Below are positions 7,174 through 62,782 of a DNA stretch of 64,000 nucleotides, in pieces (within the stretch, counting starts at the first letter, position 1; the number at the start of each line of letters is the position of its first letter). Below the pieces are notes generated by a model that was not told the DNA's origin, did no database searches, and saw only the letters and a list, made by a program, of their open reading frames with translations. The translations under genes were made by a program, and so were the position numbers. Source of the stretch: Alviniconcha marisindica (taxonomy: Eukaryota; Mollusca; Gastropoda; Provannidae); the NCBI GenBank assembly GCA_018857735.1, contig JABMCL010001071.1:618501-682500 (forward strand), written 5' to 3'.

Positions 7174-10100
7174 TTAGTCGTCCACCTCCTCTTTCGCTTT
7201 CTTTTTCTTCTTCTTCTTCTTCTCTCCACTTGCATCAAGTGAGCCTGAAAAATACAAAAAAAATGTGACATGCCAATCAGGGAAATACAACAGCACACAA
7301 GGATAGACTGATAGCTGGTTTGTAATGCCCAATCAACCACAATTAAGTTATACCAAAAATGAGAACAAAATACTTCAAACTTCACTCACATCATCTTGCT
7401 AACAAAGCTGTTATTTTAAAGTGTGCAGGTGACATAACTTGTCAAAGCTTAGTGCTGAAATACTGAAAATGGCTATCTGCATGCAACAGAAGCTTACTGG
7501 GCAAGATTCATGATTTGAATAGTTCTGTTCTTTCTCTATCCCCCCCCCCCCCCCCCCCCCCCAATCATTGAATAAGGTAACTTTTCAAATGTGGATGCAT
7601 TGTTTTCAGTTTATAATAATAAAAAATTAATGTTAATGCAGCATCTTTAGATTATGAAGCATAATAATAAAATTGTGAAAGTAGTGTTTTCTCTGGTACT
7701 GTTGTGGGGGGGGGGGGGGTTCCTTAACTGTCAATTGCTTTTATCAGCCTTTTCCTTATGTGGCGCTGACTGTACCAGTGCAGTAAAGGGGACACGGAGA
7801 AATCCGGAGTCACTAAATGCTGAGAGAATGGTATCTACTGCCCAGCCTTACCTGTTGAGAGCTGGGACACATTCATGCTGTCCTCCTCATCTTCCTGTTT
7901 GTGCTTCTTCTTCTTCTTTTTCTTCTTTTCAGACATCGACTCTGCAAAAGAAAACAAATTGCATGCCTTCTACCAGACTATATCATATTCTTATACCACT
8001 GCCTTGGCAGAGGTTGCAAGACCCATTTATAAAAGACTCAAGCTTAGTGAGTGCATGGGCACTTAACTGCAGACATTTTGCTGCATCTAGCAAACTATCC
8101 TAGTTAAACACGATTCTCTGGGGAGGTTTGGGGCTCTCTGTTGCTAGTTTTGATAGTAGTCTTTGTACTTTGTAATTTCCTTAGACTGGGAGAGCTTTCT
8201 ACCATGTCTTTGTTAGCAGGCGGTTTAAAATGGGGGTGACATATCCAGCAGTGATTTACTTGACGCCAAATGCCAATGCTATCACCCTGTTGCAAAAGCA
8301 GTGTTATTTTGTTCAGCATTCACACAGGATAGTCGACTTCACCTAAAAAGTCCAGATTTGTTGTCGGGCACAAACTTCATTGTCCTCAGAAACTCCACAG
8401 AAGTACACAGGAACCACTGATAAAAATCAGAGCACTGACAAGAGAGGCTATCTGTCTTTTTAAAGACAACTTTATCTTCAACCCTTCCCATCATATATAT
8501 ATAAACCCCTCATCAAGGACTACCCTTAGTTCAAGACCACATCTGCTTCATTTCATACTGGTGGTTAAAGAGGGGTTCTACTGTATTCATCTGCATGAAG
8601 CCATGCACAAAAAGACGTGTACTCACCATCAGCAAAAGAAGTATCACCATCTGAAACTGGCTCAACCTTGACCTTTTTCTTGGGCTTGGGTTCATCCTCT
8701 GCTTCACTGTCACCTTTTCTCTTCTTCGGAACACTGGGCAAGGTGGAATCTGCTGCTGCATTGTAGACACGCACTTCACTGGTGACAGAAAAGGAGGGAA
8801 AAACAGAAGTTAGCACTGAGGGCCAGTTTTCGACTTCCTTCCAAGCCTCAACACACAAGGGAGTTAATTAGCACTCAAAATACATAACACAAGTAGAACA
8901 AAGACCTGAGTCCCCTCCTGTAACTCTCACCTGGCATGCAAGTAAACACAAGGTAAATCCTCTACCAAGACTTATTTTTCCTTTTCTTCTTGATTTCTCC
9001 AGGCTCTACATCAGCCATTGACCAGTTAACAGCCCAAAATGTCTGATTACTTACTGGAGGAGGCAGACAAATGCCCCATTCATTTCTGCTTGAGGCAGTC
9101 AATGTCTGTTCAATTTGGTTCAACAAGGTGCCTTAAAGAGCATGATACTCACTGGCTAAAAAATAACGGAGATGGCTTACTGACCAATTTGTCACGTGAA
9201 ATGAGCGTGTTTTTAGTCAGAACAGGTTCAAATAATTAACAAGACACAAGATACTGTTCGTCTTTAACTGATGGTAAAGCATGATGTATTTATCCTTTCT
9301 TTCAAGGACTTATTTCACAGTAAAGCATGTGCCATTTCTCTTTCGAATGACTTATTTCACTGTAAAGTACTAATATGTGGGACACTTCTCCTTTTCTTAA
9401 CAGGACCTATTTTGCGGTAAAACGGGCAAGAAAAAATACTCGTATTCACACACCACCGCTCAACCAATTCTCCAAGGAAATTCTGTATGAATGCTTACCT
9501 TTTGTTTTCATATTTCTCCCATTTTGCCTGCTTCTTTCCTGAACCACTGATTTTTTGTACCTGAAACAAACAAAAATACAAATTTAGGGGGCAAAGTTAG
9601 GCACAGATGTTTGTTTTGGTTTTTATTGAAACTTTTTCATTTTTTATTCCAGATTAAAAACACAGTGTGATTGCCTCAGAGGTAGTGACGAATAAAAGAG
9701 TAACATCAGCAGTCAGAAAACAAAAAGTTTCATCATTGGCAACCATCCTTGGATCAAGACTGCACCAGATTAACTACTGCATCACTGCACATATACAACT
9801 CAGATGTTTACTTTCCACTCTTTGCAGCACATACATACAAACATCATTTCCTTCAATATCAAACACAATGAGACCATTTCACATTCAAAAACACATCTTC
9901 AAACAGATTATCTGCAACACTTGTGACCAAAACTGTCATGTCACAAAACAGGGTTTGTACAGAAAAATCTATTCAAAATTCACAAACTGTTCACAAACCT
10001 TTGCAATATGGGCTGGGGCAAAAAAGCAACATGCAAGTACGCCACACATCTGGTAAAGGGGCGCAACCCTTACTGGAACCAAAGGCTGATGTACTCTTAT

Positions 10101-13100
10101 CAGTCAAAACTGATAGGAAGTGCATACTCTGTGATTTTGCACTACTGATTTTTTAACTACTGTTTGGTCTTGGGAAGTGCAGTTTCCAACTGATAAGCTG
10201 ATAGTTTTTCCCTAACACTCTGAAGACCACAAAATTCACAGACCCCACTCAGTTTTCACAGACTTTCAGGGCCTTGAAAAGCTTATCCCATTTTCCCTAA
10301 ACTTTCAAAGACCTTCAAAGACTGTGCGAACCCTACAAAAGTAATAACAAAATGGACAGGTCCACGAGTTGTCTGCCCTCATAACATACATGACCAGAAC
10401 AAAATGTAGTCACTGAACAACTTAGCATCTGTTGCAAAATGTCCAGATTGCTATCATCACACAGACTGACAAACCCACAGACTCTACTCACCCCTCTGTT
10501 CTCCAGCTGTCTGATGCGACTCTCCAGCTTGGCTCTGTGCTCCAACCCCATCTCACAGTTTGTCTCGTCACCCAAGGCGTCAACACGGATGGCCAATGCA
10601 GCTTTGCCAGCAAGCATACGTGACATCTGAAGAATTTGATGACACAAAAACCATCAGAAACTTGCACAGACAAGGTACAGCCAACACCTAAAATGCAACA
10701 CCCCATTAGTCATCTCAGTGTATGTATGTAAGTTGCCATATTCCTAAAATATTAAGAATTCACTGAGATTCCCAAACTACTAAGGGTTTGGTGGGATTCA
10801 TGGTCTGAGAAACTATCTCTGAAAACAAATTACTGCAAGTGCATACTGGATAGTTCCACTTTTCATATGTTCCTCTTCCTATTCACACACGCCAGCACTC
10901 CTGCCTGTAAAATAGGCAGGCTGGATGGAACAATGCTGCAGCTCGAGCAGACCACATTTATGGGTAGGCGAGGAGGCCAGCTTGAAATGGTTAAATATGT
11001 CATTCTGCCCGCCTTGATGTGAATAAAGTCTCATCATGGTAATTTGCTCCGGACGCTGGAGGCAACAAGTATGCTTGTGTACTATTACTACCAGTTACTA
11101 CTCCATCCCATTTGCTAAACACAAACCATTGATCATGTAGGTGTTCTGTCATACAAATCCTTGCAAGTGAGAAACTTAGTATTATGCGCTGATTTTAGCA
11201 TGAACACCAGAAACAGTTTGACTCGTGTTGCTGAAAGCAATGTCTATGCCTGCCTGCACAGAAGCCAAGATACAAACAAGTGGAGATAAAATAGAAATGC
11301 TCTCATAAAGTCAGAGGAAACCATAAAATCATAAACTGTTGTGGAGAATAAAAAAATAGCCTCAGAGGTAGTGACGAATTGTAAGGTAACATCACAAAGG
11401 TCAGACAACCATTTTTTCTTCTTCATTGGCTTTCTACTGTGTACCTGATGAAACAAATCTTTGTAACATGTCTAATGTATTACAAAACAAGACAAAAAAC
11501 AACAACCTCACCTTTCCTTTGTTCTTGGGATTTGCCTGTCCAACAAGAGAGGCATGGTAGATGAGACCGTACTTGGGTGTGTCATGCTTGGCCTTCAGCG
11601 CTCTGAACAGTGCCTTCTCAGCACCTAGAATCTGCACTGTCGATGATGGATGCTTTGCCAGGTTCATCAAAGACCCTGGAACCAGAAAGCAGTCATCATT
11701 TCCCTGTGAGGCAACAGTGGCTTGCAGTCACAAGACACCGGCCTTAAAATCTGTAACAGCATCCAAATTCTCAGGCAGTGGCACAGTTCTTGAACTCCTG
11801 ATTAACTACAGTATCTGAATGTAGAATATTCCTTCCTAACGTCTTCTGTGTGACCAGTCATTGGAATCTCTCATAGTCTGCCTTATCATTTGTCTTCACA
11901 GACTCTTGTCAGAGCTGGTGTTGTTTTGAATTAATCATTGAGATTCCATGGTCATGTTTGACAGAGTAATAAATACAAAATAAACAGCTAAACACTCATA
12001 CACACAACACTTAGCCTTTCATCCAAATTTTGTTTTATGTCATGGACCATTTGAATGAAAACCCCAGATCTGAGCAAATTTTCACTCTAATCACGTGCAA
12101 AGCTTCAAACTGACAGACGCAACAACTGCTGGGGTTATAACAGTTACTTGGGAACAAGGAAGCAATTTATACTAGTTACAGTACCTTTAAACAAATTTGT
12201 TCAATGCTTGGAACTGTTTTCTGGCACTTTTTTAAAATGGTGCAATATCAAACAAAAATTTATTTGATTGTGGAGGACAGTGCCCGTCAAGTCAAAATCA
12301 GGATTTTTTTCAAGGAACTCGACACGCACATATATATATATACACACACAGAGACTTTTTTTCTTCTTCAATTCCATGGTTTTTCCAGGACTTTACGAAG
12401 ACACAAAAATCCAATACTTTTCAAGGCCTAGAATTTTTCTCACAAATTCCTGGCCTTTTAAAGGTTTTCCAAACCTGTATGTACCCTCTGCTAAACCAAA
12501 AATTCCAAAACCTGGGCTTTGTTCAACATAAATCATGAACTAAAAAACTTACTCTCAGCAAAAAAAAAACCAGATTATTACACACACTTTTGGGTTGTTA
12601 AATTTTGTTATTAACCATACAATAAAACTGCACTGGAAGCATCTGCTGCTGGTGCTATCAGTTGGAAGCATCTGGAATCTCTCATAGTCTGCCTTATCAT
12701 TTGTCCTCACTGGCTCAATCAGAGCTGGTGTTGTTTGGAAGTAATCACTGAGATTCCTCAAAGAGACAGAAACAAGAAAAGAACATGCCTTTTCCATTAA
12801 CAAAACAAGCACTGTGTGACAGACCCTAGGAGCTCACCTGCATGTGAAATGAGACGTGCCCCGACCAGCTCTCCAACCAAGGTGGTGAGATTTGGTGCAA
12901 TGGCCACCATTCTGTTCTTCAGGTAATCATACAGCTGTGCTCTGTACTCGGAAATCTGTATCACCTGCCAGGGAGGGAAAAAGCAGTTTTGAAATTCTAT
13001 CAGTATCACCACCACAATGTAAACAGCCAGACAAATCAGCAAAAAACAATACCCCAAAATACTAAAACATTTGAAAAGCATTTGTATTCATCAGCATGTA

Positions 13101-16100
13101 TACAACATGTCAATCCTGTTCAGTATTTCCACACAATATTTCACACTTTAGCTACACTAAATGGCTTGAAATAAAAAGGACAAGGACAGATTTGACAGTT
13201 GTGTAGTAAGCACAGCACACGGGGCACAACATATTAGGGTCATTCTATGAAGCTGTGTACCAATAACTACCACCGTGGGTGGCCTGTATTAAACCAATAT
13301 CTTGAATCAGTCTTTCGTTACAACATCTACCCTTCAATTTTACTTTGTTGTATACTGATGAGATAGATTTCTTTTTTTTAACACTAAATCACAGTGTTCA
13401 GTTATAACTGGTGGATGCTGCAAACTGAAAATGGTGGCTTTTGTTTGTGACATTTTCTGCATGCAGAGCAAGAATGTATCACAGTATCAAAAGTACCAAC
13501 AGAATGTGAACAAAGTTGATTTCAAACATGCAATACTGATGTCTTTCCATGTTGGACATATGATAGGGAACATCTCCGGGCCAGCAACTTTCTGGTCTGC
13601 AAAGTTAACTCATGCAAAGAAAATGAAGATGCTCCTTTGACCAAATATGTCTTTAAGCGTCTGCGTATGTTGCATTCTTTTAACATTTTTGGCCAAGAAT
13701 GGGTTGGCAGACGAAGGTCATTTGGAGTTCCAGACAACCGAAACAGTCATCTGGTGTTCCAGACAGCTGCAGAGCAAAGCCCTGGCACTGTAATGCGAGT
13801 CTGCTTTGGGTTACATACAGCAAAATGCACTCTTCTTCAGAATATGAACTCTTCAACTCAAATCTATTTTATACAAAAATCATTAAATATCCACAGTTGT
13901 AATATTTCCCCATATTTTTAGCTCTCTGATGTTGCACCATTGTAACTGTCATGGTTGACTGGTGTTGCACTGCTGTAACTGTCATGGTCGACTGGGCATT
14001 TCCCAGGTCTCTGAGGACATTTCCGCTAGCAGGGAGCTCCACAGTCTAAGCCAACCTCATAAAATGCTTGCGAGAATGCTTGCCTCGTGAGTTTTGCACA
14101 ATGGTCAGATCTGTCCTACAGATTGCACAGAAGAAAAAATTATGAATGTACCTGTTCACACAAGAAACCTATGTTTTCAATATCCTCATCTGAGATTTCT
14201 GTACCCATGGAAATTTCCGCTGCATCTTTCACCTCCGCTTCAACCTCTTCAGGCAGGATGTCGGACAGATCACAAGTGGCCGCTTTTGTTCTGTCGCCTG
14301 TTAACATACACCCGTCTCATCTTTAGAGGTATGAAGGTGAGGAATCCTCTACCGATCTAAACCATTAACTGTAAGCTGCAGATCACCCAACCCCACCCGT
14401 AACCTTTCTTTGATTTCTAAAACATGTTCACCCCTTACAAGAGCACCTGTGGAAGGTGTCCTGCCATCACCATGCACCAGTCTCCGGTTTCTCAAAAGGT
14501 CTTAAAACCATGAAGGGATGAACAGCCACACTAAATATAATCGTAACCGAACAGTAAAAATGGTTTGCTTCAACTGACTGACAGCTGAAAATCAGACCCC
14601 CTGCAAGCGAGGAGAAGTTAAAAGTATCTTCTGCACTTGTAACAGGAGTAGTAGCAGCATCCACATTATATACATAGCAATGCATCATTTCAAACTGTTT
14701 TCCCTTTAACCATTCATTTATGCCATTTTGTTTAAAAACAGTGCTACAAGATCTTTAACATCTCCATCCACAAACGACTAAAAGCATTCAAGAAACTGGC
14801 CAATGACTGTATTGATCTGTTTCTGAAGCAAATAAATACAACTGATCCATTACTTGTATGACAAGATCAGATACCATAAACTCTTCATAAGAACTCAGAG
14901 ATTCAGACAGTCATCATCATGTCTTGTCTGATGTTACTAATCAGTATCAATATTATCATACAAGTGTCTCCATTTAGGTGGACCACAAACACCTTTCAGC
15001 ATAAATGTGTGGTGCGGTAATCAGGTGTACGGAGAAAAAGCACAACACGCAGCCTCATGTTCGCCTTACATCAGACGATAAATTTGTGACATATAATAAT
15101 AATGTACATTTATCATGCGCTCATCAACGCCCTGAGCGCTCACATGATGCACATTAACCTAAATATATTCTATACACATATAGAGCATAGTCCTACCAAA
15201 ACAATTTACATAAGTATTATAAAAGAATTTTTTTTTTTTAAAGCACTACAAATGCACACACACACCAACTGTAGCAGAAACTGGGTACTGATATTAGTTA
15301 GGATGAAAATACTGAGAAAAGGAAGGTTTTCAGTTTGGCTTTAAAAGATGACACGGTTGAGCAGTGTCTAAGGTCTTGTGGGAGTGAATTCAAAATGTGG
15401 GGTCCAAAGCAAGAGAAGGTGCAAAAGCCATGAGTCTTGCATCTGTATTGTTGGATTTCCAGCATGCGGGTGTCAGAAGAAGAGTGTAGTGTACGAGACG
15501 GAGTGTAGACATGCAGCAGTTCAGAGAGGTAAGCAGGACTAACCCAAAGAAACAAGCTGCAAGAGTTTACCCATCCGTTCACAGGTGTACTTAGTCCACC
15601 ACATACAAATGCAGCTCAGAGTGCCAAGCTACCAAACAAGAAAGAGTGTGCAGGACAAATGGAGCCAGCAACAGAGGCGAGCCAACAAACCTAGCTTGAT
15701 CACAGTGCGAGCAAAAGCGTTGTTGTCTGTGACGATCTTGGACAGCTCGGGAAAGTGCCAGCCGTACCACTCTCTGGCTCTCATGATATAGTTGTTGAGC
15801 TCTTTGTCAAGATCATCAAGCAGGGCTGTGGACAATAAATTATTATAACATTAACAAGATACTGAATGCTTTGTGCTTATCAAAATGCACAAAACCACAT
15901 TCTGTGATTTGATTTTACAAAGCCAAACAAGGCATAACTATCCACCAAAAATCTCCTTCTGGGCTTAAATGACATGCTCATTATGAACTTTCTGCAAAAT
16001 ATGGTTTCAAATCAGAAAGTGCACAGATATCCTTTTTCTTTTAGTGTCACTTCTGCCTTTGCTTTGATTAAATCATATTAGCTACGTCAAGTGATTCCAC

Positions 16101-19100
16101 ATTGTTTAGGACAAACTGTGTGTGTGTGTGTCTGGAATCTCTCATAGTCTGCCTTATCATCTGTCCTCACATTCTGTCAGAGCTGGTGTTGTTCTGAAAT
16201 AATCATCAAGATTCCAAGTGCAAGCACACACTTCTTAATCATTAATAAAAATAAAACAATATTAAAATAAACTACACATGGTTTCAACATAAAGCCACCA
16301 CAACTCACACACACGGTAAGTTTGCTCTTGTTCATTAAAAGTACAATTTACAATTGCATGCCATCAAAAACCAATTAACTTCCTGCTCAATATTGTTAAA
16401 AACAGACAAGCTTTTCTTAAACTCACAAATAGCTTGAACTATCATTGTGTCCACTTTGTCAGGGCTGAACTTCAGCTTGTACCGTGAAAGACTGAAACAG
16501 AAAGTCTGTGTAAACGTCTTGTAATTTTTTTGAATAAATCTACATGACCCAGAACTTTAAAAATCAGCATTGAAAAAATATGTGTGATCAGAAACTCAAA
16601 TGGCATCCTCACAGCGTGTCAGAGGTCCAGACACAAGTTTCATCATTTCACTTCCAATCTGAACTGCATCACCTAGTTACATTGTAATTTTAACACACAA
16701 TCAGTGCAGAAGTCCTGTACCTGAGCAGACTGATTACCAAATGTTACCATTCATTCTTTTAACAACAACAGTAACAAATCTGGCCACTGAAGACTATGTA
16801 ACTTTTAGATTTACTGTTCCACTGTAGCTCAACCAAATTTCCAGTTTATCTGCATCATTCGATCCAACTTTCATTAGTGAAGAAGCCCACTGTAAAGTTT
16901 GCACCTAATACAGTAATATTACAGACAAGCCCCTCATTTCAAGACCACACGAAAACAATCAAGAAATAGAAGTCGCAAAACTATGTAATATGTAAAACTT
17001 AAAAGGCGATCATGGGTGAAGAGCTCAACTGCACGGGAGTGTAAACAGAGTTACTGCACCAGCCACAGAAAGGGTGAGAGCCTAGAGTTGACTGTCCTGT
17101 GACGACCTTTGTGCTAATCATCTATATTATTATGGTCAGTGTCAAAGAATCAGTTATCTCTAATATAAACCTTCACGGTACTTACACTGTCAGTGTCAAT
17201 GTAGGGTTCAATGCTAAAAAACTCACAAATGCTTTAGTTAAGAAATCGGTGATCTGCGACTGAGATCAAGTAAGAGGTTTTGTGTTATACAAAATACTCT
17301 TTAGTTTACCAAACTGCGTCTCTTTGTGCTTAAGCTAAGGTTAATTATCAGTTAAACACACAAGGCACTACCACTGTGCAAGTATAATATTTATCTTTTA
17401 ATTCATTAATACAATGCAAAATGGCATTGACAAGATCAGAAACTCTTAAAATCCTCATGAATATTCAGAGGTCCAGACACAGTTTTCATCATGTCTTATC
17501 TGCCAAAATAATTCAGCTCAGTCCAGACAAGGCCCTCATTTCAAGACCACACAAAATCAAGAAACAGAAGTCACAAAACTATGTGTAAAAGGGTGATCAT
17601 GAGTGAAGAGCTCAACTGTACAGGAGCGTAAACACAGAGTTATTGCACCAGCTACAGAAAGGTGAGAGGCAGAGCCAAGAGTAGACTGTCCTGTTATGAC
17701 CTCTGTGCTAATCATCTGATATTAACTATTAAGACCAGTGTCAAAGGAAATCAGTTATCTCTAATATAACCTTCATGGTATTTACACTATCAACGCTAAA
17801 AACTCACAAATGCCTTAGTTAATGAACTGGTGATCTGTCACTGTGAGTAAGCAGTTTTGTATTATATAAAATAAAAAAATCTTTTACCAAACTGCATCTC
17901 TTTGTACCTAAGAACAGTTATCAGTTAAACACATAAAATTATGGCAGTACAACTGTGCGAGTACAATATTCCACTTTTAACACAATACATAATGGCACTG
18001 ACAGGATCAGAAACTCTTAAATCCTCATGAATACTCAGAGGTCCAGACACAAGTTTTCATCATGTCTTATCTGCCAACATAATTCAGCTCAGTCAACAAA
18101 AACAAATAACCTCCAAACAGATTATCTGCCTCTTTGAAAGAACCACTGTCACTGTAGTGTAAACCCCTTTCTTTTTTTCATTTGTTCAGTTGAACCATTA
18201 TTTGCTTGGGAAGGATGGGGTGGGGGCAACATGTCTTACATTAAAAAAAGCATCATTTTTTTTTTCCAGATCAGGCAGGTCAGCCAGTAAACTAACTGTA
18301 TTATTACAAAGTGCTCTCCTGGTCACAAATTGTATTCCTACAATGTAAGCAACTGAGCTGCATGTTGCCATATTTTTAACCAAACTACATGACATAGTAA
18401 CATTTTACATTCACGCTGGAGACTGCGGCACATAAAACCATTCTCTTCAAGTCCTAAATATCCCAATTTGCTGGACAAAAAAACAACAGCCCAACCCAAA
18501 AAAGATCAGTTTCTCATTTCAACTGTTTAACTGTTGTTTTGTAGCTTGACAAAGGGGATTACCCCCAAAATTTGCAGATTGCGTGTCTGTGTCAAAATAA
18601 ATAAGCGTTCTTTTGAACCTTTCTGTTTCACGCGTTTGGATCTATCCTAAAATCTGTAAGATGCCAAAAACAGTAGGAAACCTCTCCGTGAAAGGGGCCT
18701 CATCAATCCAGTTTTATCCCATTCCATTCACTCCTCTCTAAATTCAGCCACCATTCATGATTAGAAAGACCCAACTTTAGAAGTAGTGATTCTGACATAC
18801 ATATACTGCACAACTCAAGAGCTGTGTAAAGGAGGTGGACAATGATTCCTGTCCCTCGTCTTTGTGGACTTCAAGCAACACTGAAAGATACATACTGCAA
18901 AGGAAACTCTCATAGTCTGCCATATCATTTGTCCTCACAAGCTTCAGACCACTACTTTTATATATTAATCATAGAGTTTCCTTTGCATGCATGTTCATAC
19001 TTTCAGGATGAAAATTAATGCAAATACCTTGCACAGAATTAATCACGCAGTTGACTTCAGTTTTATTCACATATCAACAGAAGACTTGCAGAGATGGTCC

Positions 19101-22100
19101 TGTTCATACCTATGCACAACTCTTACACTGTTACTGTGTCTTGTTGCTAGTGTTACTACGCCATTTCTTAATTTTAATTCTATCTTCTGAAATTAAGACT
19201 GTAGTGACAAACGTTACCTTTTTTCAGTAGCTGAAGGTGCTACATAAAGTAAAGGTAACATCGGGGTGACCCTTTTTATTAATACCTGACAGCCCAAAGC
19301 ATTTTATTTTTTGAGTGACCAATATGTGCATCAAGACCAAGGTGACTTTCATGTGTGTGTGGTGTTTTTTTTATTGTTTATTATTCTAAGACTCAGGAAT
19401 CATATTTGACAGCTTTACTCAGTTACTGTACAAAGACATGCACTTTTGTTGTTGTTGTGGGGTGTGGAGCTCAAAACTAACACTATTACACAGTATTAGT
19501 ATTACATTGCTGCAGAGCTGCCTACCAGTACCCACAAATTTGCTCGTCGGTGTTCTGTACAGGCTAAGTTTGCATTTTGATGGTGCCAAACATATTTCAT
19601 CTGCACAGAAAATCCTCCATATGAGAGGTTTTCCTGCATGCGAACTGTGAAACATGGATTTAAAATATTTAAAAAAAAGCGGAGTACAGAATCTTACCAA
19701 ACGCATGTTACTTGCTGGAAACTCTCATAGTCTGCCATATCACATGTCCTCACACAGGTGTCAGACCACTACTTTTTATATCATTAATCATCGAGTTCCC
19801 ATGCAATTATATTGTCTGATTATTCTATCAACGCTAAACTCTTACATGATGAGTTCTCTAACTTTCAAGGAATATAACCATACAAGTGGTGACCTCTACC
19901 TTTTACACACACAATAACCCCTACCCCCAAAACTTCAATTTTATTTTCAAGCTCCAACCAAGAGGAAAGAACCTGCATAAATCTCAGCAGTGTTACTGTT
20001 CTCAACAAACAGCCAGAGTGGATGTAAACACAACATCCCATCCTAGATCCTCCCTACATCAGTGATCAGTGACTGATTTGCCGTTAGTTCACGGCACCAG
20101 TTTGGAAAACTGTTGCTCTTTCATGATAGTACACTAACTTACACGCTATTAAAAAATATATAAAAAACACACACACAAAAAAAAAAATGCAGACAGTGAC
20201 TACAGCCTCTACTACCTGTTCCCTCCCGTGTTACTTCAGTTTCTTTTTATCACAAAGCGAGGAAGAAAATGAGCACAGTACCTTGCTATAGTTCTACATA
20301 TATGAGAAGAGGTGAGCACAATGCATTGACATAATTATAACTGTGTTTGTTCATTCAGAATGACCAACTGACCAGCCTTTTCCCCCCTCAGTTTTCATCA
20401 TCACTTTCTTCTCCTGTTGGGAGTTTTTGTTCAGTGAAAACGAATTTCCGAAGTCTCTCCCACATAATTTTGCACCAACTGATTCAATACTAAGCAGCTA
20501 GATCTTTTTCTTCAGTTATTCACTGTCATTGGCAGCAAGTATTTAACAACACTTACAGCTGCACATATTCCTGCACTGATGCAGATTGTATTAATCATCT
20601 AATGTCACTCCAGCTGATGTTAACCAAAGCAACAAGTCAGAAACTCTCAAATCCTCACAGCAACTCGGCGGTCCAGACACAAATTTCATCATTCCTTGTT
20701 GTCAAAGCTTTGAAATGCAAGTTTCAGCCAAGCCCGCCACAGAGAAGTCTGCATCTTTGGTATCAAGTTGATCAACTGCTGTTTTTTTTATACTGTTTTA
20801 ACTGAGCATGCAGGTGCAATACACAGCCATGACAGCATTGCATCATTTATCTATTACATATATTCAGCCATGCTTGATAGTAATACAGAACAGGTACATC
20901 AAAATCCATGTTCTAAGTAAACAGCAAAAAAGTATGTTCTTTTCATAACTGTAAACGTACAAAGCTGCAACTAAATCTTAGAAATTTGGCCATATACACA
21001 GCTTACCTATCAAGTCCATATGTGGCCATCAGAAGAAACTCAACTGAATTAATTTAACTGAGACAAAGAGATCAATAATGTGTATAAAAATGTGTCAAGT
21101 CTCAAATTACGTGCAGCTAGTCAAGCTGCAGTTGTGGAAGTTTTGGAACAAACCTTTTGCCCATCAGCTCTACACATACAGCAAGCAAAAAGCCACTGGA
21201 TGCATAGTTCTTAATTACTACCGGTTTCACGCATGGAAATTGTTCAAAGAAAAAAACTCTCAAACTAAGGGGGTACAGGTGCATGCCCCCCTCCCCACCC
21301 TCAAATTTGTTTGGACTACAGCAAACTTGAGGAATCTTGGACAATTCCTGTGCCGGAGTTTGCACAAAATCATCTATACTCCTCCACCATTACAGCAGTT
21401 AATGGTCGTTACAAAGAGGAGTCTCATCACTACTGGTATAATATACTGTACTCTAGCCATCTAAGCAGAGGAAGCTCTCATAGTCTGCCATATCATTTGT
21501 CCGCACGTATTTGTCAGACCACTACTTTTGATACTAATCATTGAGCTTCCCCTCTGCAAGGCTACAACTTCTACTCTGAATGGTATCAATCAAAGCCGCA
21601 GACTCCAGTACATACCTATGAGCAAGACCGAGGGCCATGGCAGACAGCTCCCTGTCCCCAAGGCCGGTGATCAAGCTGTCCATCTGAGAACGGATGCATC
21701 TCATCAGCTCGTTAATGCTGTTGTTGGTCACACACTGAAGGTCAAACTTTTCCTGCAAAGTTTATCAGTACGTAAAACAAAGCCAAAGGTAAATTTCCAT
21801 GTCAACCATAAACCACAGAAATAAAAAAACTCTTACTTACATAAAGCATTATGAACCATAAAAACAGTATCTTTCTGCATTAAATTAAAAACAAAATGCA
21901 TACACCTACTCCGGGCAATTATCTATCTTAGCAAAGGAACAGTCTGTCAACTAAAAGGAGGGTGACAAAATCTTATTCTGAAATTCATCCCCGTTTGGCA
22001 TGTGCCTCTATGGTCAGTCATCACTGGTCAGGTGATCAGTCACAGGTTCAATGCTCAAGGGAGCTCCCCCCCTTAAAAATAAATCTCTTGCTGCTACAAA

Positions 22101-25100
22101 ATACGATGGACAATATCTGAACCTTTCCCTTTTCTAAACATTTGTTTTGTGCAACCCCCTCCCCCCCCCTCAGCTGCTAAAAAACAAGATCTATTCTCTA
22201 CACCAGTGCAACTGCATGACCTGGCTAAAGCAGGTATATAGAAAGAAAAATAATAACCTGTGAGGTCAGCTTATTATCAAGAGGCTGTATATATTATGCG
22301 GACCTGTTAATGTATCAACTGATTTGCTGGATAAAATGTCTGCCGAGTCCTCTGCAAGGAGCCTTTTCCGCTTTCTTACCTTGATGATGTTGCCAAGCTT
22401 GGCATCTGCCACAGCAAGCTCTTCTTGTGTGTCACTGCTGACCAATTTCTTCATCAATTTCTTCAGTGTCTTGCTCATTTTCCCCTCCACAGCTGCTGTT
22501 GCGGCTGAAAACAAAAGCAAATTCATAATAATCATTAGAGAAATAGCATTTTCCCCAAGTCCACCAAGATTGTGTAGTTAACACAATGATCTGCATACAT
22601 GTTAATCGTTATATATGCATGCAGATCTATACGAGGCCTTGCTTTTGTACAAACATGGATAATTTCCCATGTGCAGACCGTGGTATTAAAAAAAAAGCAG
22701 TCTTAATCTTATAGGACAGTGTCATCACTCAGAATTTTTGCTCATCAGCGTTTCTCTTGGAAACTCGAAGCGAGCTGGGATTATGGTTTACATCATTGTG
22801 ACAACAACTGCAACTGTTTAGGTCTGAATACTCTGATTTTCCAGACACTTTCCAGCCTACAGATTCAGCCAGGGTTCCCCATTTTTCATGACTCGAGGGG
22901 GTTGAGCCAACATGTTGCAATTTAAAAAGGTATGTAATTTAAAAAAAAATTTTTTTTAGAAAGAATACCAGGTATCCAGATCTTTGTTTTCTTTAATTTT
23001 GGAAGTTTGTGTGTCCAGGGCTCCCCTATTTTGTGTGAGTACTTCAACATGAATGAGAACATAAAATCTGAATTTAAACAAGGCACAAAAACTGCTGCTC
23101 TTCAAGGATGGTAATCTTTTCTTACAGAAGTTTTACCCTGTTCATTTCTTTAAATTCCAACAACTAGGAATTAAGCAAGCACTCTAATTAATCTAACGTA
23201 AATTTTAAAGTATTACAGTTAGTTATGCAAATTCGACAAGATCAACACATCCAGTGACACACACATTCTCTTTCTCTTACATGATAGTGCCTCTGTCATG
23301 TCTTTGAACTTCTGGAACTGTTTCAACTTGATACTGAAACAGAAGCAAAATCAACCAAAATTATACAGCCACAACTATAGTAGTATAAATGATGGACAGG
23401 GGAGGGAGCAACCACAATCCATTTACATTCAACTTCACTCACTTAGTGTATCCACTGCCCTATTTTAGTATAATTCACACATCAGTGTAATCACAATCTA
23501 TCTAGATTAGACCTAGAAGAAAAAGAAAGAAAAAAACTGGTGCAGTTTTCCACGTCACTCAGAAGTTTCATTCATCAGCGTTTCTCTTGGAAACTCGAAG
23601 CGAGCTGGGATTATGGGTTACATCATCGTGACCAGAAGTATTATTTTATAAAAAGCTCAAATTTATCTCAAAGTTAAACTTGTTAAAATTAACCAAAAAA
23701 TCATCTGTAGATAAACCATAATGAACAAAACATTTTGATCCAGTTTACTACATAAGACTAACAAAATGACTAATCTTCAAGTTAAAATTTCTATTTTTGC
23801 AAACCTCATGTTTTACTATCAACACAGACCAGAAGATCTCCAGAAGTGGACCCACTGTTGAAGTGCCATCAAACCTTTGCATCATCTTAAAGGGACACTG
23901 AGATAAGCACAGCCTGCGTGTGTAGGCAACAATCCAGTCAATGAAACCTATACACATCTGAACCATGTTGGGACACGCCAGTGTCACTTCAAGTCCATAT
24001 CATGGTCCACTGTAATCTAGCTCATTAGAGTGGTACACTATGTCATATAGAAAAAAGTCAATGCCACATTCTGAAGAACTGTAGTAGCAGCTGTATGCAT
24101 TATTTTTTTACAGTAGTTACACACTTGCAGATCAACATGTAGCCAGCTTTTAATATAGCTCCCCTTTTTGTTTAAATCATTGAATACTAGTCATGGTGCA
24201 AGTTTTCAATCAAATCAACATTTCACTCAGTTACATGGGTAAAATGCGTAGTTTCTTATGGTTGTGAGCCACCAACATCTTCCAATTCCTACAAGACCAT
24301 GGTGCACCTGTTATAAACTTTGTTATACATTCAAAATTATTTTTAAACAACATAAGAAATGCTCCATATATGTCTCTTAGACTATGACTCGCATGAGCAT
24401 GTTACTCTGCATAATTTTGTTTAAATTTTACAGAAGGCTATACTTATTACAAGGACCAGTCATTTTTTTCTCAGGACTCATTGTAGTTTTCTGTACCAAC
24501 CCATCACCAGTAATGCATGCATTTGTAGTGTGTATGTCATGTCTGTGTGAGAGAGAGTGTATGCATGCATGATGAAATGATCATATCCTTATGTCTTTGT
24601 AACAAAGTAAGTGCTCTGGGTTCTTACAAGATGGGTCACCATAAATAATCTATTACTTACACAGTTAATAAATACCAGTAGTGTTTTAGACAGGCAAAAC
24701 TATTATTATTAGTCTATTACTATTAGTTATTTAGCATGTTCCTATACTTAGTTATTACACTTACACTAGTTACAGTCACTGATCACTCAGAATTTTCAAT
24801 CATCAGCATTTCCATTGGAAATTCGAAGCGAGCTGGGATTATGGTTTACATCACTGTGAATCAGTGCTATTTATTCACAACTGAAATGAGGAATGGGGTA
24901 AAACATTGTAAAACACACATGTCTAGCCACACAAATTGAGAGAGTGCACAACAGTCAACATAGCATGCTTTGCTCAACTAAAGCTTAATAAATCCACATG
25001 GCTCCACTAGTGCTTAATAAATCCACATGGCTCCACTAGAGCTTAATAAATCCACATGGCTTAAAGTTTAAACTGTTAATCATAATGCTTACACTTGGCT

Positions 25101-27181
25101 GGCAGACTCTGGGTTTTCAAAATCAAGGTAAAGGTTTTCACTGTGTTTCAGCTTCTTCTCATTCAGCAACTGTAACATAAATGGACCAGTTAGTTGTACA
25201 ACTACAAGTGTTGTCCCTGGAGTGAAGGGAACTGACCAAGCAGATAGACTGGCCTCACAAGTGGCTTGCTTCTCAGAAGACCTGCAGTGTTGAGAAGCTT
25301 GAGACACTACCTGTGGGCACCAAGCCAAGGACATCACACCATCCATTGCCTGGAGGAGGCGTGGAAAGAGGAAGTGCTAGATGATCTTGCTTGAAAGGAT
25401 GAGATTGAGAGAGGGCCATCATCAGTCAGATGAACATTGGAACTGTTTCAAAGGCAACATTGGGGAAACTTCTGAAAGACAGGGTGCAGCGCACACATAT
25501 GGGCTTTTCTGAGAGAATAGATACCATCCTGAACAGAACTGTATGTAGTCATAGGACAAATGTTCAAAGTGATCCACATTCTTTTCATGCATATCATCAG
25601 CAACTGCAAACTGTCCAATTAGTTAGACAAGTCAAGTGCTCTGTGGGTTTGGGATTCTTTTCACTCAGCAAAAAACGTAGTGTGTGTGCACCTAAAAGGG
25701 GCGAACGGGCATGTCAGATATTGGCCATTAGTAAGAGTAACCCTGATGATGAAATGCACTGTCAATTTTTGTGGATTGTAGTAAATTGCTTCCACAATGA
25801 TCACTGGAAAAAGCATGTGTGTGAGTGTGTGTGTGCATGCCCCACACCCCCTTACTGGCACAGTTTGCTGAAAAAGAGAGCTTATGTGTTATGTGCATGT
25901 GGCAGAAAGATGCCAACAAGACAATAAGGGTGGTGACAAGTGATCACATGCTGGGCCATGCCAGCATATGTAATGGTCAACCCTCCATAAGATGGCCTCT
26001 ACAGTCTGAAATACAGCAATGCACTGGTACAATGGACAAACCAGCATAAGATCTCAAATCTGTGCTTACACCTGTATTTTGATTCTTACTGGGCTGTTCT
26101 GAAATACAGCAATGCACTGGTACAATGGGCAAACCAGTATAAGATCTCAAATCTGTGCTTACGCCTGTATTTTGATTCTTATTGGGCCGTTTCATGTATT
26201 GGTTCGCAACATTTCCATGATCCTCCCAACTCTGACAAGTGACATGGACACCAGGATCTTTGCAGTGACTGAGTGAGCAGCTCAGTCAATGCCCAATGGG
26301 GCATTTACCACTATGCTATTTTTAAAGCATTTTGGGGTTACTTCTCCTGGTTTCAGGCAAGCTTTCCATACCACTTTCCAGCTGACAGTAACTGAGTGTT
26401 GACACATGCAATGGATTTTTGGAAATTGGACTGTGACCACAATAAGTGATTTTATAACTGATATCCTCAAGAACAAGGAATTAGTACAACAGGATACAAG
26501 CAGCAAAATTCAATTAGGTGATCTCCATGTGCGAACATTTAAATTAACTTGAGGCAACCAGGCAAGTACACAGCTGAAGAAGCCAAAGACAAAAAAGAAG
26601 GAAATGGTGGAAAAATCAAAATAACTAAGAAGGGAAAAGATCAAGTTGGGCCACACATATTCATCAACACAAACATTGACAAAAGAGCACAACTGCTTAA
26701 CCCCTGCATTAACCGGTGGAACCCAACTTTCCGCAGTATCAATATCATTGTATCAGTGATACTCAGTCATACTGCGATAGTTGCACGGGCACCTGGACGT
26801 TTTTTGTGTGTAAACTGTACAATTACTAAATTCGAGCCATCGAGGAGCCCGAACGGAAAAGAAAAAAAAGAAAAAGAAAAAAACAATGTAGACCAATATG
26901 TGCACGCAATGAAATATCAACAGTCATGATAAAGAACATAGGAACATTCAATGTTTGAAAACAGAACTATTTAAATGGAAAACTAAACCCTCGAAATGCT
27001 CAGGAGGGAAAAACCACGTGCGCACGTGGTGGGGAGCAAGAGAAATCACACAAAAAATAATGTACATTATAACAGGTCGACACATGAAACATTTCGGACA
27101 CATAAAAACTCCGCGACGTATAATATATATGCAAACCTTAAATACGGCATAGCCTGCCGCAGTTTCAAATAGAACAAGCAT
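7174..27181 (-). CDS. NOP58: NOP58, core box C/D snoRNP protein, 15 exons, complete
   Basis: Exons, in transcript order: 27181-27137, 25169-25093, 23333-23281, 22504-22380, 21752-21616, 16491-16427, 15825-15691, 14297-14152, 12964-12838, 11675-11512, 10626-10492, 9560-9499, 8778-8627, 7941-7852, 7244-7174. All have AG acceptors and GT donors. Phases add up to 1584 bases: 527 residues and TAA at 7176-7174. The human protein is of similar length (529, from memory). NOP58 assembles with NOP56, fibrillarin and 15.5K on box C/D snoRNAs for rRNA 2'-O-methylation and pre-rRNA processing. Visible landmarks are [15 protein letters not shown] (NOP5 N-terminal domain), [20 protein letters not shown] (coiled coil), [35 protein letters not shown] and [20 protein letters not shown] (Nop domain). 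A Lys-rich C-terminal tail with [13 protein letters not shown] and poly-Lys runs follows. The introns host at least 16 snoRNA copies. Confidence 0.97.
8855..8970. mobile_element. Half copy of an inverted-repeat MITE (NOP58 intron 12)
   Basis: It shares GGAGTTAATTAGCACTCAAAA, an ACAAAGACCTGAGTC-type stretch and AACTCTCACCTGGCATG with the full palindromic element at about 53722-53978. Only one arm is present. Confidence 0.55.
9268..9440. repeat. Degenerate tandem repeat of about 65 bases, 3 copies (NOP58 intron 12)
   Basis: Copies are marked by GGACTTATTTCACAGTAAAG, GACTTATTTCACTGTAAAG and GGACCTATTTTGCGGTAAAA. No box motifs were found, so it is not counted as a snoRNA. Confidence 0.55.
9669..9744 (-). 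ncRNA. Box C/D snoRNA, family E copy 1 (NOP58 intron 11)
   Basis: Read on minus: 5' stem GGTTGCC (9744-9738), box C AATGATGA, D' CTGA (9716-9713), C' TGATGT (9708-9703), box D CTGA (9679-9676), 3' stem GGCAATC. The terminal stem has seven pairs including one G-U. The D guide TTCGTCACTACCT is complementary to the conserved 18S stretch AGGUAGUGACGAA. The fifth base above box D pairs with the A of GGUA, which I believe corresponds to human 18S Am484. This is the best-formed snoRNA in the window. Confidence 0.85.
11356..11433 (-). ncRNA. Box C/D snoRNA, family E copy 2 (NOP58 intron 10)
   Basis: It has the same D guide, TTCGTCACTACCT, in front of box D CTGA (11365-11362). C' TGATGT and D' CTGA (11404-11401) are kept. 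Box C is AATGAAGA, a one-base departure from the consensus. The terminal stem is shorter (AGCC with GGCT plus one outer pair). It targets the same 18S site as copy 1. The weaker box C may mean lower activity. Confidence 0.75.
11863..11947 (-). ncRNA. Box C/D snoRNA, family A copy 1 (NOP58 intron 9)
   Basis: The 8-bp terminal stem is GGAATCTC with GAGATTCC. Box C is AATGATTA, D' is CTGA (11912-11909), C' is GTGAAGA and box D is the variant ATGA (11874-11871). The D guide TGATAAGGCAGAC complements 18S GUCUGCCUUAUCA as I remember it for invertebrates. The D' guide ends AACACCAGCT; I could not assign its target. Confidence 0.7.
12674..12757 (-). ncRNA. Box C/D snoRNA, family A copy 2 (NOP58 intron 9)
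   Basis: Stem GGAATCTC with GAGATTCC, box C AGTGATTA, D' CTGA (12722-12719), C' GTGAGGA, box D ATGA (12685-12682). Both guide segments are the same as in copy 1 of the family. This is the second snoRNA in the same 1.2-kb intron. Confidence 0.7.
13925..13998. repeat. Short tandem duplication in NOP58 intron 8
   Basis: Two copies of a stretch containing TTGCACCATTGTAACTGTCATGG-like sequence (about 36 bases each), with a few differences. There are no box C or D motifs. Confidence 0.6.
14860..14928 (-). ncRNA. Box C/D snoRNA, singleton family G (NOP58 intron 7)
   Basis: It has a perfect 7-bp terminal stem, GACAAGA with TCTTGTC. Box C is ATGATGA, an internal CTGA serves as D', and box D is CTGA (14870-14867). 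The stem and boxes resemble family C, but the guide segments differ. The D guide contains GTTTATGGT, complementary to nine bases of a conserved 18S stretch (ACCAUAAAC), with a mismatch near the box. The target is therefore unproven. Confidence 0.65.
16134..16215 (-). ncRNA. Box C/D snoRNA, family A copy 3 (NOP58 intron 6)
   Basis: Stem GGAATCTT with GAGATTCC (one G-U pair), box C GATGATTA, D' CTGA, C' GTGAGGA, box D ATGA. Guides match the other two family A copies. It lies next to a short (TG)n run. Confidence 0.7.
16584..16651 (-). ncRNA. Box C/D snoRNA, family C copy 1 (NOP58 intron 5)
   Basis: Box C AATGATGA, D' CTGA after guide TGTGTCTGGACCT, C' TGAGGA, box D CTGA (16591-16588). There is a 4-bp stem, GTGA with TCAC. 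The D' guide complements 18S AGGUCCAGACA. The fifth base pairs with a C that I align with human 18S C1272, the site served by SNORD66 in vertebrates. Confidence 0.75.
17429..17500 (-). ncRNA. Box C/D snoRNA, family C copy 2 (NOP58 intron 5)
   Basis: Seven-pair stem GATAAGA with TCTTGTC, box C ATGATGA, D' CTGA after TGTCTGGACCT, C' TGAGGA, box D CTGA (17439-17436). It is the left member of a tandem duplication that also copied the flanking intron. Confidence 0.8.
18000..18071 (-). ncRNA. Box C/D snoRNA, family C copy 3 (NOP58 intron 5)
   Basis: Nearly identical to copy 2 in all boxes and in the TGTGTCTGGACCT guide. The terminal stem has one mismatch (TCCTGTC in place of TCTTGTC). It is the right member of the tandem duplication. 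Confidence 0.8.
18800..18890 (+). mobile_element. Degenerate SINE tail (NOP58 intron 5)
   Basis: Contains AGAGCTGTGTAAAGGAGGTG and TTTGTGGACTTCAAGCAACA, a diverged match to the SINE tail at 1557-1660. Confidence 0.4.
18902..18981 (-). ncRNA. Box C/D snoRNA, family B copy 1 (NOP58 intron 5)
   Basis: Stem GGAAACTC with GAGTTTCC, box C ATGATTA, D' CTGA (18947-18944), C' GTGAGGA, box D ATGA (18913-18910). The D' guide AAAAGTAGTGGT complements a conserved 28S stretch, ACCACUACUUUU. The D guide half is shared with family A, apart from one base. Confidence 0.75.
19717..19800 (-). ncRNA. Box C/D snoRNA, family B copy 2 (NOP58 intron 5)
   Basis: Stem GGGAACTC with GAGTTTCC (one G-U), box C GATGATTA, D' CTGA after AAGTAGTGGT, C' GTGAGGA, box D ATGA (19728-19725). 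Its loop is slightly longer than that of copy 1. Confidence 0.75.
20631..20700 (-). ncRNA. Box C/D snoRNA, family C copy 4 (NOP58 intron 5)
   Basis: Stem AACAAG with CTTGTT (six pairs, one unpaired base), box C AATGATGA, box D CTGA (20640-20637). The D' guide keeps TGTGTCTGGACC, but D' itself is degraded (CCGA). The 18S-directed half may therefore be weakened in this copy. Confidence 0.7.
21470..21550 (-). ncRNA. Box C/D snoRNA, family B copy 3 (NOP58 intron 5)
   Basis: Stem GGAAGCTC with GAGCTTCC. Compared with copy 1, one A-T pair has become G-C on both sides, a compensatory change. Box C AATGATTA, D' CTGA after AAAGTAGTGGT, box D ATGA (21481-21478). It ends only about 66 bases downstream of the 5' splice site of this intron on the minus strand (exon edge at 21616). 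Confidence 0.78.
22724..22802 (-). ncRNA. Box C/D snoRNA, family F copy 1 (NOP58 intron 3)
   Basis: Stem GTCAC with GTGAT, box C AATGATGT, C' CTGATGA, box D CTGA (22732-22729). A long conserved arm contains AATCCCAGCTCGCTTCGA. No canonical D' is present; a TCGA could substitute. The CCCAGCTCGC part complements 28S G(U/C)GAGCUGGG in the peptidyl-transferase region. Confidence 0.7.
23554..23632 (-). ncRNA. Box C/D snoRNA, family F copy 2 (NOP58 intron 2)
   Basis: Perfect 5-bp stem GTCAC with GTGAC, box C GATGATGT, C' CTGATGA, box D CTGA (23562-23559). The CCCAGCTCGCTTCGAGTTTC arm is identical to copy 1. The sequence between C' and D differs. Confidence 0.75.
24783..24859 (-). ncRNA. Box C/D snoRNA, family F copy 3 (NOP58 intron 2)
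   Basis: Box C AGTGATGT, C' CTGATGA, box D CTGA (24790-24787), 4-bp stem TCAC with GTGA. The CCCAGCTCGCTTCGA arm is conserved. It is the second family F copy in intron 2. Confidence 0.68.
24982..25062. repeat. 29-bp tandem repeat, about 2.8 copies (NOP58 intron 2)
   Basis: Unit begins GCTTAATAAATCCACATGGC and continues TCCACTAG; starts at 24983, 25012 and 25041. It lies directly downstream of exon 2 on the transcribed strand. No function seen. Confidence 0.85.
26006..26191. repeat. 93-bp tandem duplication (NOP58 intron 1)
   Basis: Two copies begin CTGAAATACAGCAATGCACT at 26006 and 26099 and differ at only a few positions. No box C/D signature is present. Confidence 0.85.
27013..27030. promoter_or_regulatory. 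Perfect 18-bp palindrome with two CACGTG E-boxes at the start of NOP58 intron 1
   Basis: ACCACGTGCGCACGTGGT is its own reverse complement and contains two canonical E-boxes separated by four bases. It lies about 107 bases inside intron 1. CACGTG is the high-affinity MYC/MAX (and USF/MITF) site. First-intron E-boxes in nucleolar protein genes are known MYC targets in vertebrates. Regulation here is inference. Confidence 0.6.
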
Positions 27182-29842: not shown

Positions 29843-44776
<14,934 letters not shown>

Positions 44777-57012: not shown

Positions 57013-57287
57013 AAATGTACTCGTACTCAATTCATTTTTAAAAATCCATTAAAAAAAAATTCGTTAAATCGCTTCTACCTGTTAGGAAAGATGATGCTTT
57101 GAGAAGGCTATCACCTGAACAGCGTTCAAACGTCATAATTATACGATGGCCATTTTCAGTGAAACCAGTGATTGTTGCTGATGCGCACAATGTAACAACA
57201 CTTCCAAATCTGGCTTTTCAGGCAAAATATACACACAGCTACAGTCGACTGCACACTCGTGACACGTTGACACGGCGAGCCGTAGTA

Positions 57288-62261: not shown

Positions 62262-62782
62262 TCCTCGTCATATTAAGAACGTATATGAACTTATTTTAAG
62301 CGTTTCGGTTTACGACACTTGTGGTAGCTAGATTCACCCAGAATCACGATTGTAAATCCTTCTGGGGGAAGTAAGCAAGTGCACTGGATACCGAAGAAGG
62401 CCTAGGCCCAACGATCCACTCATGCACGCATACGGGTTAATTTTATCGGCAACGACTTTGGAGGACACGGCAAGGCCGATCTACTCACAGCTGCGTAAGC
62501 AGCGCTTATATATGTATATATGGGCCTATGCTCGTTTTGTTATAGTGAGGAGTGCAGTTCACTACTTCAGCCACTCCTTTTAATCACCTTCCCTGGCGTG
62601 TAAATTTGTACCACCGTTTGTCAAACACGCTGATACTGGGAGATAGATCAGAAATCCACAACAGCAGTTAGTTTTGGTAAGCGCAATCTCATTCTGCAGT
62701 ATTGACTAACTGATGAACGTTAGGTTTGGAGGAGATAGTGAGTGGTCTAGCTGCTACCTGACACGGTTGGAGCGGTGAGGCC

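Follow-up and report, generated by a model that had tools for sequence, protein, structure and literature searches.

The NOP58 gene of Alviniconcha marisindica raises the question of how many box C/D snoRNAs its introns carry, what these could guide, and how they came together in a gene that encodes a core protein of box C/D snoRNPs. Within the window (the whole 64-kb stretch of DNA that was analysed), the gene was resolved into 15 coding exons with AG acceptors and GT donors, joined in a single open frame of 527 aa. The predicted protein showed 88% identity to Littorina saxatilis NOP58, the best among the 120 matches listed, and matched PDB 7mq8 'Nucleolar protein 58' with E=8.2e-208. The analysis confirmed 16 box C/D snoRNA-like elements in the introns: two each in introns 2 and 9, seven in intron 5, and one each in introns 3, 6, 7, 10 and 11. 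All 16 were intronic and lay on the minus strand, which is the transcribed strand of NOP58. The count, the sense-strand location and the distribution over introns given in the initial annotation were reproduced from the gene structure. The features were as follows.

7174..27181, minus strand: NOP58 host gene (spliced in-frame coding sequence; Littorina saxatilis match; PDB 7mq8)
16492..21615, minus strand: intron 5, 5124 bp, with seven snoRNA-like copies
9664..9749, minus strand: A1, SNORD70 homologue, intron 11 (Rfam SNORD70, RF00575, 52.7 bits, above the gathering threshold of 50)
11350..11439, minus strand: A2, second SNORD70-like copy, intron 10 (Rfam SNORD70, RF00575, 35.3 bits, below gathering 50)
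11862..11950, minus strand: B1, intron 9 (group alignment; group-built model R1, 94.2 bits; fold z -2.83)
12672..12758, minus strand: B2, intron 9 (group alignment and group-built model; 22.6 bits on Rfam U54 against a gathering score of 40)
16133..16216, minus strand: B3, intron 6 (group alignment and group-built model)
18898..18984, minus strand: B'1, long terminal stem, intron 5 (fold z -4.07, 0/200 shuffles; group alignment and model)
19716..19800, minus strand: B'2, intron 5 (group alignment and group-built model)
21468..21552, minus strand: B'3, intron 5, 63 nt from the exon 5 donor (Rfam U54, RF00206, 25.7 bits against a gathering score of 40, with E 0.0035 when 101 nt were searched; fold z -3.73)
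16585..16651, minus strand: C1, SNORD66/ceN106-like, intron 5, 93 nt from the exon 6 acceptor (Rfam SNORD66, RF00572, 23.7 bits against a gathering score of 32, with E 7.4e-4 when 96 nt were searched)
17432..17497, minus strand: C2, ceN106/SNORD66-like, intron 5 (33.7 bits on ceN106 against a gathering score of 60; E 0.001)
18003..18068, minus strand: C3, intron 5, also ceN106/SNORD66-like and duplicated in tandem with C2 (29.6 bits on ceN106, under the gathering score)
20633..20698, minus strand: C4, intron 5, also ceN106/SNORD66-like, with CCGA as its D' box (22.1 bits on ceN106, under the gathering score; alignment)
14860..14928, minus strand: E1, intron 7, a C-group copy that has diverged and whose guides are changed (79% to C2 over 75 nt; Rfam snoR38, 35.2 bits against a gathering score of 45)
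22725..22803, minus strand: D1, snoR69Y-like guide, intron 3 (UAAUCCCAGCUC in common with the snoR69Y consensus; 22.0 bits)
23555..23631, minus strand: D2, intron 2 (92% to D1)
24782..24860, minus strand: D3, intron 2 (90% to D1)
16922..18094, minus strand: tandem duplication of about 600 nt with C2 and C3 (16922-17523 and 17524-18094; 77% over 628 columns)

The claimed snoRNA anatomy was recovered, with boxes C and D near a closing stem. Box C RUGAUGA and box D CUGA were canonical in A1, C1-C4 and E1, and one-base variants of box C were found in A2 (UGAAGA) and D1-D3 (UGAUGU). The B copies carried UGAUUA together with AUGA, a paired change: box C position 5 and box D position 1 were U and A in all six B copies and G and C in the other ten. 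For 14 of the 16 elements, no more than 7 of 200 random intron pairs did as well as the terminal stem; the figure was 14 of 200 for A2 (-8.0 kcal) and 66 of 200 for C1. Here the script chose the best stem among the possible D boxes, a choice denied to the random pairs, and B3 was anchored on an overlapping UGAUGA. Among the eight copies that were folded, A1 and E1 were no better than their shuffles and D1-D3 slightly better, and the closing stem was absent from the predicted optimal fold of D2 and D3.

A covariance-model search had been proposed as a check, and its outcome was divided. In the whole 64 kb, Rfam gave a single gathering-level match, the SNORD70 at A1, so that 15 of the 16 copies fall under curated thresholds. 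A permissive scan (9001-26500, E<=10, 48 rows) touched 13 of the 16 elements. All 42 of its C/D-type rows were on the minus strand, and 40 of them overlapped these elements (three partially), the other two being sR20 and sR14; no row fell on B1, B3 or B'2. The plus-strand rows were mir-2229, SCARNA7 (a scaRNA) and CrcZ. A family-blind C/D scanner, to which the UGAUUA/AUGA box pair was added after the copies had been seen, recovered 9/16 elements at a score of at least 24 and 11/16 at any score. At the former score it also reported four other minus-strand sites in the gene (two overlapping exons 8 and 10), and two minus and two plus sites outside it. Models were built for the B and C groups, none for A or D, and the scores of their own members are high by construction. 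They found no further copies in the window: the next best hits reached 16.8 bits for B (six members at 85 or more) and 12.5 bits for C (five members at 75 or more).

By alignment, the 16 elements are four homology groups, A (2), B (6), C (4 plus the diverged E1) and D (3), instead of the six families of the initial annotation. E1 fell with the C group, as alignments of 75 nt join it to C2 and C3, and B fell with B', which has the same 3' half and a different D' guide. The six B copies had U54-like ends and two D' guides. Their closing stem showed covariation, with 91.7% of cells paired, eight double-changed cells and one pair occurring as UA, AU and GC. Only 0-1 of 500 shuffles reached four of the five measures, while 101 of 500 reached the fifth, and a slide by one column dropped the pairing to about 50%. 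The stem GCUC/GAGC, box C UGAUU and box D AUGA were in common with U54/SNORD54, whereas the guides were unlike and the snail copies scored below the threshold. In the comparison with the U54 guide, 13 consensus positions before D' had no counterpart in B'3, which was left outside U54.

The guides were compared with rRNA sequences that were contaminants, not from the snail, and that covered the LSU model without positions about 1752-2711. To fill the LSU gap, viral contigs were screened with a 15-base pattern, which gave 34 loci, none with any of four other LSU words; an 18S pattern matched no viral contig. With the target at +5, the pairing was clear for the C group, was supported for the A group by the match together with Rfam homology, and did not rise above shuffles for B, D and E1. 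The best supported reading of the predicted guides is that they match 18S at the SNORD70 (A512) and SNORD66 (C1272) sites. The D' guide of the C group formed about 13-14 pairs with 18S, and 0/30 shuffles were as good for C1, C2 and C4. This guide and the layout were in common with vertebrate SNORD66 (GUGUCUGGGCC) and C. elegans ceN106 (GGACC), and the snail differs in that its copies score below both Rfam thresholds and number five in NOP58. On the SNORD66 model, C2 and C3 reached 21.9 and 21.6 bits and C4 and E1 had no row, so that the C group is called SNORD66-like only; B2 scored 21.8, and such scores are therefore not group-specific. The D guide of the A group formed 10 pairs with 18S with A at +5 (in A1 at AGGUAGUGAC), and shared AUUCGUCACUACC with the SNORD70 consensus. 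The best guide score of A1 was on an LSU stretch, not on 18S. A sub-threshold SNORD11B on A1 was the sole SNORD11-like row of the permissive scan.

For the D group, the guide fitted LSU UGAGC with C at +5, and 25-33 of 100 shuffles were as good; the snoR69Y consensus itself did no better (51/100). D1 scored below the gathering threshold of 45 for plant snoR69Y (RF01198), with which a 12-base guide stretch alone was in common; the D group differs from it by an internal hairpin and a degenerate D'. We take snoR69Y to be related to yeast snR69 and SNORD35; complementarity of the D copies to U1 RNA was also considered as a possibility. For the B group, the best score of the D guide was reached by 12/30 (B1), 5/30 (B3), 12/30 (B'1) and 16/30 (B'2) shuffles. 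The best site of B1 and B3 was a different 18S stretch, not the U354 region, where a mismatch persisted in both subtypes; U354 as the B target is tentative here. The D' guide GUAGUGGU of B' may pair with an LSU stretch ACCACUAC.

Very probably, NOP58 is an intronic box C/D host in which four old lineages (SNORD70-like, SNORD66/ceN106-like, with a snoR69Y-like guide, and with U54-like ends) gave rise to 16 copies by local duplication; the flanks would have decayed while boxes, guides and closing stems were retained. The copies would be co-transcribed with NOP58. In single-copy introns the snoRNA would be freed by splicing, debranching and exonuclease trimming, whereas release from introns 2, 5 and 9 would depend on internal cleavage or on processing independent of splicing; otherwise the snoRNAs would stay linked. 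The mature RNAs would then act as 2'-O-methylation guides, for 18S A512 and C1272 in the SNORD70 and SNORD66 types, and extra copies may raise their dose.

Alternatively, function may be confined to A1, C2-C4, the B group and perhaps D, with A2, C1 and E1 as decaying duplicates. snoRNA pseudogenes are common, and the variant box C and weaker stem of A2, the weak stem of C1, and the altered guides of E1, in which the alignment shows a mismatch at the expected target position, are consistent with decay. Against this, A2 retains the SNORD70 guide, its D guide having the same end as that of A1; C1 retains its boxes and D' guide; and E1 has exact C, D and D' boxes and a stem reached by 4/200 random pairs. 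We regard a partly working set as possible, although on balance improbable.

We take HBII-234 to be SNORD70, HBII-142 to be SNORD66, and the target site of the chicken SNORD70-type snoRNA to be human A512. NOP58 is already known as a snoRNA host; what is new in this predicted set is the expansion and the seven copies in one intron. The claim that vertebrate NOP58 hosts few snoRNAs agrees with the chicken table of PMC2653536, in which two families (GGgCD13 and GGgCD12) lie one each in introns 3, 6, 8 and 9, in contrast to 16 copies, four groups and up to seven per intron in the snail. The same paper locates chicken HBII-142 in EIF4G1. Vertebrate NOP58 (SNORD70/SNORD11 types) and the snail gene are the same host with a SNORD70-type guide in introns; its presence in snail and chicken (PMC2653536, as tabulated) suggests that the pairing of host and snoRNA is old in animals. 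Among the papers listed from one open library (12 of 12 for one set and 10 of 3,901 for another), none was concerned, by its title or the opening of its abstract, with snoRNA host genes in molluscs. According to passages of PMC11426995, SNORD66 serves SSU-C1272, and SSU A512, C1272 and U354 are among the sites with altered methylation in overloaded skeletal muscle; copy number could therefore bear on partly methylated sites. The locus links a core box C/D protein gene with an unusual wealth of likely RNA partners, and the B and B' copies offer a case of guide change after duplication.

As had been stated, an intron usually carries a single snoRNA; passages of PMC11028025 describe this as the prevailing arrangement in animals. 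The intronic clusters and sno-lncRNAs treated there likewise have several snoRNAs per intron precursor; the snail case is seven predicted within a 5.1-kb intron of a protein-coding animal gene, in the transcript order B'3-C4-B'2-B'1-C3-C2-C1. With intron 5, the way in which animal cells release seven snoRNAs from a single intron can be tested in a natural case. The array could be mainly a cis sensor of the core protein, like human SNORD86 in NOP56, where a core C/D protein gene also hosts a C/D snoRNA; the same protein partnership and this published precedent (PMC11028025) speak for it. SNORD86, however, is described in that text as an orphan that yields little mature RNA, while the A and C copies retain rRNA guides, and intron 5 held no excess of hidden-exon signals. 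The one candidate, a poison exon (21057-21007, 51 nt, direct read into a stop), was rejected because 3.2 were expected from the minus-strand average, in a test that passes only 4 of 13 real internal exons. A cis sensor is unlikely. A more elaborate variant, to which we give a still smaller chance, is that intron 5 would yield a linked RNA from B'3 to C1 (21552-16585, 4968 nt), capped at each end by a snoRNP, carrying as many as five more in between and holding many NOP58 molecules; the snoRNP load would titrate the protein made from the gene's own mRNA and couple NOP58 dose to snoRNP demand, and introns 9 and 2 would form shorter versions.

The origin of the copies was examined by comparison of the gene with itself. 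Self-BLAST (E<=1e-3) gave 28 pairs, of which 27 were between elements and one was an unrelated tandem repeat in intron 1; 26 of the 27 did not run past the element borders by more than about 10 nt, and some covered part of an element. The 100-nt flanks of the 29 within-group pairs scored at most 21, except C2/C3 at 60 and 32 (random intron pairs: 95% point 20, maximum 32). Like copies neighboured each other, D in introns 2-3, B and C in 5-9, and A in 10-11. Similarity limited to the elements, unrelated flanks (one tandem duplication excepted) and the covariation of the B stem indicate that RNAs under constraint were multiplied long ago by local duplication. It is highly unlikely that the copies spread by retrotransposition of a snoRNA element: similarity does end near the RNA borders, as in a retrocopy, but all 16 copies are in a single gene, in the same orientation and with like copies adjacent, the rest of the window gave only six short matches (14-19 nt, E 0.009-0.05), and the C2/C3 tandem duplication can still be seen. 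H/ACA RNAs, first suspected from repeat pairs in intron 5, were rejected since these pairs fall within that duplication. Identical sites in the duplication numbered 63/65 in the element versus 411/484 outside (Fisher p=0.006), and the best-conserved 66-column stretches (17456-17523) extended past the element.

The host gene, NOP58, lies on the minus strand (27181-7174), and its 15 exons, joined at AG/GT borders, encode a 527-aa protein with an unbroken reading frame. Among the best 120 of 7992 proteins scored, the nearest NOP58 proteins were those of Littorina saxatilis (88%), Batillaria (80%), Pomacea (76%) and Haliotis (75%), and the best relative among solved structures was 7mq8, a human structure. 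By these identities, the source of the window would probably be a littorinid or a close relation. The 16 box C/D elements counted in the initial annotation were all located in the NOP58 introns (two in intron 2, one in intron 3, seven in intron 5, one each in introns 6 and 7, two in intron 9, and one each in introns 10 and 11), and 16 of 16 were carried on the transcribed strand. Along the transcript, with slashes marking a change of intron, the order was D3 D2 / D1 / B'3 C4 B'2 B'1 C3 C2 C1 / B3 / E1 / B2 B1 / A2 / A1. Five adjacent pairs (window 11862-24860) were spaced at 808-854 bp, namely B2-B1 (808), B'2-B'1 (816), D2-D1 (828), C2-C1 (846) and B'3-C4 (854); their flanks were no longer alignable, and the remaining spacings ranged from 435 to 2170.

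Conservation was limited to the elements. Self-BLAST of the 20-kb gene gave 28 pairs, 27 of them between elements, and 26 of these ran no more than about 10 nt past the element borders, the exception being the tandem duplication in intron 5 that carries C2 and C3. For 29 pairs, compared on both sides, flanks beginning about 10 nt beyond the elements did not align better than randomly drawn pieces of intron; excluding C2/C3 (60 and 32), the top flank score was 21, and the random intron maximum was 32. Within the C2/C3 duplication, 2 of 65 aligned sites differed in the element and 73 of 484 outside it (p=0.006), and the best-conserved 66-column stretches (17456-17523) extended beyond the element. 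The gene's only self-BLAST pair not between elements was a tandem repeat of 93-94 bp in intron 1 (95% identity; window 26005-26191).

A search with Rfam models matched 13 of the 16 elements permissively and left 15 of the 16 below the curated gathering thresholds, the single match at threshold in the 64 kb being SNORD70 on A1. The permissive scan of 9001-26500 returned 48 rows by hand count, 42 from C/D families and all 42 on the minus strand; 40 of these fell on the 13 elements (three of them partly), only A1's SNORD70 row reached the gathering score, and B1, B3 and B'2 had no C/D row. A family-blind scanner at a score of at least 29 gave eight matches on the gene's minus strand, six of which depended on a box variant added after the copies had been seen, versus 0.02 per shuffle (60 shuffles); the gene's plus strand and the sequence beyond the gene gave none. 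At a score of 24, it recovered 9 of the 16 elements together with non-elements (four within the gene; outside it, two on the minus and two on the plus strand; 0.57 per shuffle). As evidence for the elements, the scanner is weaker.

The rRNA reference for the guides was non-snail eukaryotic rDNA, taken from bacterial or MAG assemblies as pieces of four out of six loci, with incomplete LSU. Such rDNA was present in bacterial or MAG reference assemblies at loci L002-L006; one Planomonospora contig (L004), for example, gave a full-length match to eukaryotic 18S. In C1, C2 and C4, the copies on which the C-group test was run, the D' guide paired over about 13-14 nt with 18S AGGUCCAGACACAA, placing C at +5; position 1 was unpaired in C4, and 0 of 30 shuffled guides equalled the pairing. 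SNORD66 and ceN106 have this D' guide in common with the C group, and PMC11426995 gives SSU-C1272 as the site served by SNORD66; because the guide is shared, SSU-C1272 would be the C-group site. The A guide, with 13 letters in common with that of SNORD70, formed 10 pairs with 18S AGGUAGUGAC; the top score of A1 (10.9) fell on another stretch, in LSU and not 18S, and was equalled by 1 of 30 shuffles, and the 18S score of A2 by 2 of 30. The B guide approximated the complement of 18S CUGCCCUAUCA, with one mismatch in both B and B', and shuffles were as good in 12 (B1), 5 (B3), 12 (B'1) and 16 (B'2) of 30; for B1 and B3, a different 18S stretch scored slightly above. By offset from the A512 site, the B-guide site would be U354. 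The D guide, with twelve letters in common with snoR69Y, covered 13 nt of LSU UGAGCUGGGUUUA, with C at +5 and a single position mismatched, 25-33 of 100 shuffles being as good. The plant snoR69Y consensus was also not above shuffles (51 of 100 as good), so the LSU test was insensitive. The guides of E1, a diverged C-group copy, were altered, and no clear target was found in the guide-to-rRNA comparison.

In the closing stem of the six B-group copies, one pair occurred as UA, AU and GC, with more changes outside that pair, and 91.7% of cells were paired, against about 50% after a one-column shift of the partner. Four of five measures were matched by 0-1 of 500 shuffles, and the number of pairs changed on both sides was equalled by 101 of 500, counts that are not probabilities since the sequences are related. 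Subtypes B and B' had their 3' half in common, with C', the guide, the D box and the stem, but not the D' guide. Box C (UGAUUA) and box D (AUGA) of the group deviated jointly; as position 5 of box C pairs with position 1 of box D in the kink-turn, this pair has changed from G-C to U-A. The U54 Rfam consensus carries the same box variants and the same GCUC/GAGC stem, so the B-group variant is not new. Among the 8 of 16 copies folded, B'1 (z -4.1), B'3 (z -3.7) and B1 (z -2.8) were well below shuffles and D1-D3 slightly below (z -1.5 to -0.6), the optimum of D2 and D3 lacking the closing stem; A1 and E1 showed no fold advantage over shuffles (z 0.2 and 0.6).

Since like copies adjoin, orientation is uniform and a tandem duplication can still be recognised, local duplication followed by decay of the flanks is the simplest, and a likely, history of the copies. 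PMC2653536 places snoRNAs of two families in chicken NOP58, one in introns 8 and 9 and the other in introns 3 and 6; the host relation of NOP58 is therefore already known. The first family corresponds to the SNORD11 type and the second to the SNORD70 type. No description of a 16-copy NOP58 array, or of seven copies in one intron, was found in the open-access literature searched. The copies would be made along with the NOP58 pre-mRNA. One snoRNA per intron predominates in animals, and two in one intron can yield snoRNA-ended long RNAs because trimming halts at the outer snoRNPs, as the review PMC11028025 describes; the seven copies of intron 5 thus pose a processing question. The intron may be cut internally, its snoRNAs may be processed independently of splicing, or they may stay linked in one RNA. 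Feedback of the array on NOP58 is possible by analogy with NOP56/SNORD86, a precedent in the same review (PMC11028025).

Elsewhere in the window, the plus-strand ORF at 2307-2888 had no Pfam match, and domains were matched in the ORFs below. The RsfS-domain ORF is presumably MALSU1 of the mitochondrial ribosome.
3693-4067, plus strand, RsfS-domain ORF (Pfam PF02410), convergent with NOP58
44432-44776, plus strand, SOCS-box ORF (Pfam PF07525)
57042-57593, plus strand, RING-domain ORF (domain match), TRIM-like layout
62762-63349, plus strand, RING and B-box ORF (domain match), TRIM-like layout
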